Of a DNA stretch of 5,936 bases, positions 2,968 to 5,936 are shown piece by piece. The notes under the pieces were generated by a model that was not told where the DNA came from, did not search any database, and was given only the letters and a program-made list of their open reading frames with translations. The stretch spans positions 1-5,936 of the forward strand of contig JACPHL010000337.1 of the NCBI GenBank assembly GCA_016188625.1, written 5' to 3'. Positions within the stretch are counted from its first letter, which is position 1. Every line of letters begins with the position of its first letter. The translations under genes and the position numbers were made by a program. The DNA is from Candidatus Rokuibacteriota bacterium. GTDB taxonomy: Bacteria; Methylomirabilota; Methylomirabilia; Rokubacteriales; JACPHL01.

Positions 2968-3882
2968 TCAGCCGCCCCCGAGGGATCGTCCCGCCGTCCG
3001 CCCCTGCTCCTCGATGAGCCCCACGAACGCGCGGGCCGCGGGCGAGAGGGCGCGGGCCTCATGGTGGATCACGTGGAAGTGACGGCGGATCGGGAGGCCC
3101 CGCAGGCGGAGGGCCCGCAGGCGCCCCGCCGCCAGCTCCCCCCGGACGGTGTGGATGGAGACGAAGGCCACCCCCAGGTTCGCCATCACCGCCTGCTTGA
3201 TCGCCTCGGGGTGGTCGAGCTCCATGGCGACCTGGAACGCGATCCCCGCCTGCTGGAGGGCGCGCTCTGTCACCCGGCGGGTCGCGGACCCCTCCTCCCG
3301 CATGAGGAGGGGCTCGGCGGCGAGCCTGGCCGGCGGAATCGCGCGGTGACGGGCCCACGGGTGTGTCGGCGACACGACCAGGACCAGCTCGTCCAGGAGC
3401 CCGGCGGCCAGGCAGCGCTCGCCGGGACCCAGGACGTGGCCGCCGACGACCCCCAGGTCGAGCTCGTCGGCGCGGATCCGCTCCTCGATCACCCGCGAGT
3501 TGGCGATGCGCAAGGAGACCTGGATGCCCGGGTAGCGGGCCCGGAAGCCCGCGATCAGCCGCGGCAGGACGTAGATCCCCGGGGTCGTGCTCCCCCCGAT
3601 CAGGAGAGACCCCCGCTGGAGGCCGAGGAGCTCCCCGATCGCCTCCCTGGCCCCCGCCAGGGTGGCGAAGAGGCGCACGGCGTGACCCTCGAGGAGCCGC
3701 CCGGCCTCCGTCAGGACGACGGTCCGGCTGAGCCGGTCGAAGAGGCGGACGCCCAGCTCCTCCTCCAGCTCCCGGACGTGCTGGGAGAGGGCCGGCTGGC
3801 TCAGGTGGAGGGCCTCCGCCGCGCGGCGGAAGCTCCCGGCGCGGGCCACCGCCAGGAAGACCTCGAACTGGCGCAGCGTCAC
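2968..3882 (-). CDS. LysR-type transcriptional regulator
   Basis: A 304-residue LysR-family DNA-binding regulator. The N-terminal winged helix begins MTLRQFEVFLAVARAGSF, with the helix-turn-helix at about 18-40 (AAEALHLSQPALSQHVREL). The linker is RTVVLTEAGRLL (53-64) and the periplasmic-binding-protein-like effector domain spans about 91-295. GGSTTPGIYVLPRLIAGF (96-113) and DLGVVGG (142-148) resemble CbbR, CysL and selenium-associated LysR regulators, but I cannot pick one. The start is GTG 3882, with AGGGG about 9 bases upstream. It lies head-to-head with the methyltransferase gene across an AT-rich island holding a T-N11-A site, the standard arrangement for a LysR regulator controlling itself and a divergent target. 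rpiA follows 7 bases downstream, so a pentose-phosphate role (CbbR-like) is possible. The effector is unknown. Confidence 0.95.
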   Translation of the reverse strand: MTLRQFEVFLAVARAGSFRRAAEALHLSQPALSQHVRELEEELGVRLFDRLSRTVVLTEAGRLLEGHAVRLFATLAGAREAIGELLGLQRGSLLIGGSTTPGIYVLPRLIAGFRARYPGIQVSLRIANSRVIEERIRADELDLGVVGGHVLGPGERCLAAGLLDELVLVVSPTHPWARHRAIPPARLAAEPLLMREEGSATRRVTERALQQAGIAFQVAMELDHPEAIKQAVMANLGVAFVSIHTVRGELAAGRLRALRLRGLPIRRHFHVIHHEARALSPAARAFVGLIEEQGRTAGRSLGGG

Positions 3883-5151: not shown

Positions 5152-5535
5152 ATGCGCCATTTCATCAATCTCTATGACGGGCTCCGGGCCATGGAAGCCG
5201 ATCCCTCGACCGCGGGGGATCCGATCAAGAGGATGTTCATCTGCGACGGGCAGCACCTGACCGCAAACCTCGCCATCGTCGGAGAGAGTGGCAACGCCCT
5301 TCATACCCAGCCTGCCCATGACGAGCTCGTGGTCATCCTCGAAGGCGAGGCGGACTTCCGGGTGGGCGATGAAGTGCGGCGCGTAGGCCCTGGAGACCTG
5401 GTCTTCATCCCCCGCAACACCCTGCATGGGCCGATTCTGAGTGAAGGAGCCAGGATTTCAACGGTGTCCGTGTACGCCCCCTTCTTCGACCGGTCCAGGA
5501 AGAACATCGAGTGGGACCGGGACCAGCAGACGTGA
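5152..5535 (+). CDS. Small single-domain cupin protein
   Basis: A 127-residue cupin beta-barrel. Motif 1 is GNALHTQPAHDELVVILEGE (47-66) and motif 2 is GPGDLVFIPRNTLHG (79-93). In the usual G-x5-HxH-x3,4-E-x6-G pattern, His51 and Glu58 are present, but the second His is Gln53; His56 is nearby. Motif 2 supplies His92. A metal site of His51, Gln53, Glu58 and His92, or one using His56, is possible, so it may be a dioxygenase or isomerase with altered metal binding, or a non-catalytic sensor. Small cupins are too diverse for a substrate to be named. ATG 5152 has a perfect AGGAGGT (5138-5144) 7 bases upstream. No signal peptide, so probably cytoplasmic. It lies between the methyltransferase and the MBL hydrolase on the same strand. 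Confidence 0.9.
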   Translation: MRHFINLYDGLRAMEADPSTAGDPIKRMFICDGQHLTANLAIVGESGNALHTQPAHDELVVILEGEADFRVGDEVRRVGPGDLVFIPRNTLHGPILSEGARISTVSVYAPFFDRSRKNIEWDRDQQT

Positions 5536-5584: not shown

Positions 5585-5615
5585 TCGGAACGCCATGCAC
5601 GAGAGGAGGCGTAAG

Positions 5616-5936
5616 ATGATCTTCCGGCAGTTCCTCCGTCCCGAGACCGGCTGCGCGGCCTACCTCCTCGGCTGAGGGGGCGGCGGCATCGCCGCTGTGG
5701 TGGATCCACAGCAGGAGATCGAGCCCTACCTGGAGGTGGCGGCCGGCAAGCGCCTGGCCATCACCCACGTCATCGAGACCCACGTCCAGGCCGACCACCT
5801 CTCCGGAGCCCGGCCGCTGGCCGAGCGGACCGGCGCCGCGATCTACCTCCACGAGCTGGCCGGGGCCCGCTTCCCTCATCGCCCGGTCAAGGACGGGGAG
5901 GAGCTGACCCTCGGCAACGTGGCCATGAAGGTGCTC
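5616..5936 (+). CDS. Metallo-beta-lactamase-fold hydrolase, probable selenoprotein (TGA = Sec), 3' truncated
   Basis: Codons 1-107 run to the window edge in one frame, interrupted only by TGA at 5673-5675 (codon 20). Before it: MIFRQFLRPETGCAAYLLG. After it: GGGGIAAVVDPQQEIEPYLE, then THVIETHVQADHLSGARPLA (50-69) and TGAAIYLHE (72-80). Both sides match the start of MBL hydrolases of the ETHE1/persulfide dioxygenase and MBL-rhodanese type, so the gene is one unit. Relatives, as I remember them, often have Cys at this place (YLIGC then G-x-AxVxDP), so Sec is a natural reading. A hairpin at 5694-5712 supports this. The metal motif HxHxDH reads H56-V-Q58-A-D60-H61, with Gln for the second His. 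ATG 5616 has AGGAGG (5604-5609) 6 bases upstream; an in-frame ATG at 5595 precedes that site and is unlikely. Alternatives are a pseudogene or a base error. Family members typically act on glutathione persulfides or similar thioesters; the substrate is unproven. Confidence 0.75.
5694..5712 (+). promoter_or_regulatory. SECIS-like stem-loop downstream of in-frame TGA
   Basis: GCTGTGG and CCACAGC form a perfect 7-bp stem around the loop TGGAT (5701-5705). The stem begins 18 bases and the loop 25 bases after TGA 5673-5675. This agrees with the bacterial SECIS pattern as I know it: apical loop roughly 16-37 bases from the UGA, short upper stem, and a G in the first two loop bases. With a bulged A5713 and one G-A mismatch, pairing extends to about 5688-5719. 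A competing small hairpin (5683-5695, 3-base loop) overlaps it. Confidence 0.6.

Follow-up and report, generated by a model that had tools for sequence, protein, structure and literature searches.

The question raised by this locus is whether a reading frame at the very end of a contig, interrupted by a single TGA close to its start, is the beginning of a selenoprotein gene and, if so, what kind of protein it would encode. The window, i.e., the whole stretch of 5,936 nucleotides that was analysed, corresponds to contig C166 of a fragmented MAG (2.6 Mb, 84% complete, 344 contigs), and the closest named relatives are MAGs of Rokuibacteriota and Methylomirabilota (NC10). Because the contig ends at position 5936, the gene is incomplete in the window. 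A preliminary description, based on the letters alone, had proposed an intact frame interrupted by just one TGA, at codon 20, homology on both sides of it and an ideal Shine-Dalgarno sequence ahead of the ATG, and all three were borne out: 107 residues are translated without a second stop, both halves match the relatives within one alignment, and the Shine-Dalgarno motif is in place (Table 1). It had also been anticipated that gene callers would fall back on a downstream GTG, and indeed, without recoding, the sole open reading frame listed here starts at an internal GTG (5697-5936). Elsewhere in the window, an open frame of ~300 residues (225-1124, + strand) has no Pfam or NCBIfam match and contains a CLACGSTNPLGLQL motif.

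Table 1. Positions and strands of the features identified in the window
Feature	Position	Strand	Remarks
LysR-type regulator	2968..3882	-	Best NCBIfam match: selenium metabolism-associated LysR; in most relatives a homologue lies next to the selenocysteine gene, in divergent orientation
SAM-dependent methyltransferase, Rv2258c-like winged helix	4018..5076	+	Upstream of the selenocysteine gene, same strand
Cupin-domain protein	5152..5535	+	Directly upstream of the selenocysteine gene, same strand; ordinary TGA stop
Shine-Dalgarno sequence GGAGG	5605..5609	+	6 nt before the ATG; read from the sequence
Predicted selenoprotein gene, 5' part, 107 codons	5616..5936	+	MBL-fold, likely persulfide-dioxygenase-like; cut by the contig end
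In-frame TGA, codon 20, predicted to be read as selenocysteine	5673..5675	+	51 TGA loci; Cys in other close relatives
SECIS hairpin GCUGUGG-UGGAU-CCACAGC	5694..5712	+	7-bp stem, 5-nt loop

Relatives were taken from one-per-species genomes and comprise 80 loci. Codon 20 is TGA in 29 of these and TGC or TGT in the rest, save for one distant member with Ser (L097), so that the Cys given in the preliminary description for the YLIGC column was found with this lone exception. Within the class to which the window belongs, the same TGA is present in 35 loci from 32 genomes and is always the one in-frame stop. TGA was also found in two of the three Nitrospinota genomes searched and in 14 of 149 genomes of the phylum Eremiobacterota, which brings the total to 51 loci from at least three bacterial phyla; given this conservation, the TGA at codon 20 is not a chance occurrence. 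Cys codons (TGC/TGT) occupy the column in Chloroflexota, Actinomycetota and Bacillota, as well as in paralogues. Full-length relatives are intact and mostly 240-245 amino acids long, and the codons preceding the TGA (1-19) are conserved as protein in the relatives (MIFRQFLxPxTGCASYLFG).

A SECIS element, which had not been mentioned in the preliminary description, is present and conserved. The hairpin downstream of the UGA has a folding energy of -11.1 kcal/mol, and its loop, in which the second base is G, begins 25 nt after the UGA. According to the bacterial SECIS model (PMC13188914), the loop should have 3-9 nt with a G in the first two positions, the stem 4-16 bp, the distance from the UGA should be 16-37 nt and the minimum free energy at most -7.5 kcal/mol; the hairpin of the window satisfies all of these. 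Its stem corresponds to codons 27-32 (Ala Val Val Asp Pro Gln; gct gtg gtg gat cca cag), which are nearly invariant: GCT is used in 34 of 37 Sec genes and CCA in 35 of 37. Elsewhere in the same genes, GCT makes up ~8% of the Ala codons and CCA ~8% of the Pro codons (GC3, 84%), and the Cys genes of other phyla have GCG/GCC and mostly CCG/CCC at the same codons. When the 48 conserved codons among the first 106 are ranked by synonymous bias, codons 27-31 take the first five places. A model-conforming hairpin with at least seven Watson-Crick pairs was found in 32 of 34 Sec genes and in none of 64 Cys genes, the background for this hairpin type at other codons being 2.2%, and RNAalifold recovers precisely the hairpin given in Table 1. 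Covariation in the stem does not exceed that of shuffled alignments (matched by 69 of 500), with one pair showing a two-sided change (UA to CG, in L043). This signal is weak because the stem is nearly frozen inside the class, and the case therefore rests on the constraint on synonymous codons and on the different hairpins of the other phyla. Nitrospinota Sec genes have their own hairpin within range, with a 9-bp stem and an AGGU loop, and so do those of Eremiobacterota, with a bulged stem, an AGUUC loop and frozen CCT and GAG codons. That distinct hairpins serve one task across phyla is hard to explain except by Sec insertion. In addition, a truncated Cys copy of the Sec clade (L154; G091:C69, 201-540; YVLGC, with TGC) was observed, which after ~80 codons is joined to a frame resembling alcohol dehydrogenase. 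Drift is evident in the SECIS codons of this copy (GCC GTC GTG GAT CCG), and its genome still has a TGA copy on contig C44; L154 is thus a natural control, in which loss of the hairpin accompanies loss of Sec.

The genes selA, selB, selC and selD, for which a search had been suggested, were all found in the genome of the window. Matches to selA (600 bits), selB (380.7 bits) and tRNA-Sec (75.7 bits; anticodon TCA, reported by ARAGORN as tRNA-SeC) lie together on contig C273, and selD (395.7 bits) is located on contig C179. The latter has its own in-frame TGA within the context SHGAGUACK, where SelD proteins classically have Sec. The gene in the window is thus accompanied by one or more standard selenoprotein genes in this genome. 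Of the 32 genomes of the class with the TGA gene, 31 have a selA match, and selA is present in both of the outlier genomes that were found first; since 83 of the 95 genomes of the class have selA, this co-occurrence is statistically weak. On an NC10 CSP1-5 contig (L155, 7500-17000), selA lies ~5 kb from the Sec MBL gene.

Other accounts of the TGA have to be weighed against these observations. A pseudogene or a sequencing error, with the TGA as a genuine or spurious stop within a decayed gene, could be suspected from a single TGA in one MAG contig, in a gene cut by the contig end and in a family which does have decayed copies such as L154; however, the recurrence of this TGA, at an unchanged codon position, in 51 loci from many independent assemblies, the intact downstream frames and the strong selection on synonymous codons after the TGA leave it hardly tenable, and we regard it as already refuted by conservation. 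A frame that stays open past the UGA would equally be expected if the codon were decoded in another way, either by genome-wide reassignment or by plain readthrough to Trp, Arg or a similar residue. This has just as little in its favour, given that in the window both the cupin gene and the LysR gene end with TGA as an ordinary stop, as most Sec genes do, that the column, where it is not TGA, is Cys and never Trp or Arg, and that the Sec machinery is present. Translation might also restart at GTG 5697, where an open GTG-start frame is available, with the first 19 codons as a leader; this is very improbable too, since that GTG is Val28 and lies within the SECIS stem, codons 1-19 are conserved as protein, and the strand formed by residues 13-20 in the structural model would be lost, in line with the expectation that a downstream start removes the first strand of the fold. 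We consider it virtually certain that the gene encodes a selenoprotein, on comparative evidence and without any measurement of selenium. Every computational test proposed at the outset (the identity of the aligned column, the four sel genes and possible decay downstream of the contig end) had an outcome in favour of this reading.

In regard to function, the locus had been described as an MBL hydrolase, of which the MBL fold holds (Pfam match Lactamase_B), whereas the hydrolase part probably does not, as sequence and structure point to persulfide (sulfur) dioxygenases. An AlphaFold2 model was obtained for the relative L021, which is 75% identical to the part present in the window (pLDDT 89.3, pTM 0.90), and residues are numbered as in this protein. 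The best solved structures for the model are 3tp9 (Z 37.3) and 3r2u (Z 35.4), followed by persulfide dioxygenases of the ETHE1 type (Z about 30-31) and glyoxalase II (23). In these structures, the Sec column is occupied by Cys in 3tp9 (YLVGC) and 3r2u (YLIGC) and by Asp in the ETHE1 of M. xanthus. His56, Asp60, His112, Asp137, Arg146, His182 and Cys188 are each found in at least 90% of the aligned relatives; His56 is present in the window, and His112, Asp137 and His182 fall past the contig end and are known from the relatives only. Residues equivalent to His56, His112 and Asp137 bind the iron of type I persulfide dioxygenases, and the triad is assigned here by homology to ETHE1. Out of three features expected of type III enzymes, the His/His/Asp iron triad (with His112 and Asp137 from relatives) and an MBL fold nearest to known persulfide dioxygenases are met, and the C-terminal rhodanese domain is not, as the Sec relatives generally end at 240-245 amino acids. 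A persulfide-dioxygenase-like activity is therefore likely by inference, no assay with persulfides being available for the clade. The protein could instead be a selenoprotein with thioester hydrolase activity, similar to glyoxalase II: GloB is the best NCBIfam sequence match of the Sec protein relatives, and the binuclear MBL ligands Asp60, His61 and His182 are mostly conserved. Yet four full-length relatives reach only 78-88 bits, below the curated cut-off of 200.8 bits for GloB (TIGR03413), the match to persulfide dioxygenase structures is far better (Z 27-37 versus 23 or less), and Gln takes the place of the second His of the HxHxDH motif in most members, as it does in the window (HVQADH), so that we see hydrolysis as the less plausible activity without discarding it.

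In the model, the strand of residues 13-20, which belongs to the first hairpin of the fold, ends with Sec20. The strands that run towards the metal site are 25-29 and 48-53, so the turn with Sec20 would probably be some distance from the iron, and it is from this arrangement that a relay or redox role is inferred. Such a role is suggested by analogy with the persulfide dioxygenase of A. caldus, which has essential surface cysteines, at positions other than that of Sec20 (PMC6060420), and its specific form is put forward tentatively, with somewhat less than even confidence. A second Cys, at residue 26 and across the hairpin from Sec20, is common in most Rokubacterial Sec relatives and absent from the window and from the NC10, Nitrospinota and Eremiobacterota members; where present, it is a possible selenenylsulfide partner of Sec20.

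The gene context was counted for the 29 Sec loci among the 80 relatives. In 26 of them, the Sec gene has a gene for an MFS transporter next to it, located downstream, with an overlap of 4 bases in several loci, or, in L055, upstream. Three loci gave no MFS match, and in two of these the sequence ends shortly past the Sec gene. The MFS gene of the window would fall past the contig end. A LysR gene is found upstream, in the opposite direction, in 22 of the 29 loci, and is missing at the NC10, Nitrospinota and Eremiobacterota loci and at one Rokubacterial locus. The LysR protein of the window shares 79% identity with its counterpart beside the Sec gene of L031; among the NCBIfam models it scores best with the selenium metabolism-associated LysR, at 239.5 bits, just short of the cut-off of 250. 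Here, the methyltransferase and cupin genes separate LysR from the Sec gene, and the methyltransferase was not seen adjoining the Sec gene in relatives. The same MFS neighbour occurs in 37 of 72 Cys loci (Chloroflexota, Actinomycetota and one Pseudomonadota), none of which is the rhodanese-fused paralogue of the class. As the neighbour is common to both, such Cys forms and the Sec forms constitute one two-gene module. Pairs of a Cys-type MBL gene with the MFS gene downstream were observed at L049, L051, L057 and L065-L096. For the MFS group paired with the MBL gene, NCBIfam names no specific function.

The full explanation that we favour combines Sec insertion, a persulfide dioxygenase-like enzyme in which Sec20 has a role, and an MFS partner, and we assign to it a probability of roughly 0.75. 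Guided by the SECIS hairpin, SelB and Sec-tRNA(Sec) would decode codon 20 (UGA), for which the evidence is comparative and not chemical, and the ribosome would continue to give an MBL-fold protein of roughly 245 residues. Judging from the fold and the conserved residues, one Fe(II) would most likely be bound via His56, His112 and Asp137, and a low-molecular-weight persulfide would be oxidised to sulfite and a thiol, as persulfide dioxygenases do. Sec20, in place of Cys20 of the CstB-like type III enzymes, would probably have a redox function or carry sulfane sulfur alongside the reaction at the iron, without being a metal ligand, which is the weakest step of the inference. The adjoining MFS transporter is presumed to move the substrate or the product.

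On a tree built from 95 proteins, three changes are needed to account for the Sec label. The Rokubacterial, NC10, Eremiobacterota and Nitrospinota Sec members are not gathered in a single clean clade, and the branches of the two outliers are long. Either more than one change from Cys to Sec or one gain followed by losses may account for this. A review of May 2026 tabulates 119 prokaryotic selenoprotein families and subfamilies, and neither an MBL-fold protein nor a persulfide dioxygenase is among them (PMC13188914). Likewise, no model of NCBIfam release 20 fits with a score above its cut-off, the deep-Sep paper (PMC12013277) mentions no such selenoprotein, and our literature search found no paper on a selenocysteine MBL protein or a selenocysteine persulfide dioxygenase. 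As cited in PMC13188914, the groundwater MAG study of Deng et al. 2026 (Cell Rep) predicted 63 selenoproteins in one Methylomirabilota MAG, and this set may already include the Sec MBL protein. A more far-reaching proposal is that of an uncatalogued selenoprotein family, probably of more than one origin given that each phylum has its own SECIS hairpin, with Sec in an Fe-dependent MBL sulfur dioxygenase, where it would serve as a sulfane-sulfur acceptor feeding the iron site or in the handling of perselenide, and with a dedicated MFS transporter; taken as a whole, we hold it to be rather doubtful. Most selenoproteins are thiol oxidoreductases, and with the present protein they would gain a metal-dependent dioxygenase-like fold and the use of selenium would be tied to sulfane-sulfur oxidation. 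An exchange between Sec and Cys is usually the sign of a reactive residue, and therefore a chemical role is indicated for Cys20 of the CstB-like enzymes as well. Genes of this kind are missed or shortened by gene callers in genomes of Rokubacteria, NC10, Nitrospinota and Eremiobacterota, and the adjoining MFS gene provides a functional partner that can be tested.

Selenoproteins are already known from sulfur metabolism, namely the rhodanese-like forms 1-5, a Sec-type sulfide quinone reductase (NF049943) and YeeE/YedE (PMC13188914); they share with the present protein the use of Sec in sulfur handling and the decoding machinery, but have other folds. The genome's own paralogue (L002, G000:C311), in which the MBL domain is followed by two rhodanese domains, is 54% identical over the part in the window and reads CLAYLLGC at the same column; unlike the Sec gene, it has a Cys codon (TGC), no SECIS codons and fused rhodaneses, and no MFS neighbour was found for it. 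The ETHE1-type (type I) enzymes (4ysb, 4chl and 5ve3) resemble the Sec protein in fold, in the positions of the His-His-Asp iron triad and in the GR(P/T)D motif, and differ from it by the lack of the ACGK loop and, in 4ysb, by Asp at the Sec column. The CstB-type (type III) persulfide dioxygenase-sulfurtransferases, represented by 3r2u of Staphylococcus aureus and 3tp9 of Alicyclobacillus acidocaldarius, match over the full length of the MBL domain (33-42% identity, Z 35-37) and share the column near the start, occupied by Cys in both, as well as the ACGK/CGK motif following the last metal His. In contrast to them, the Sec protein has Sec in place of Cys at position 20 and no fused rhodanese, and its gene is paired with that of an MFS transporter.
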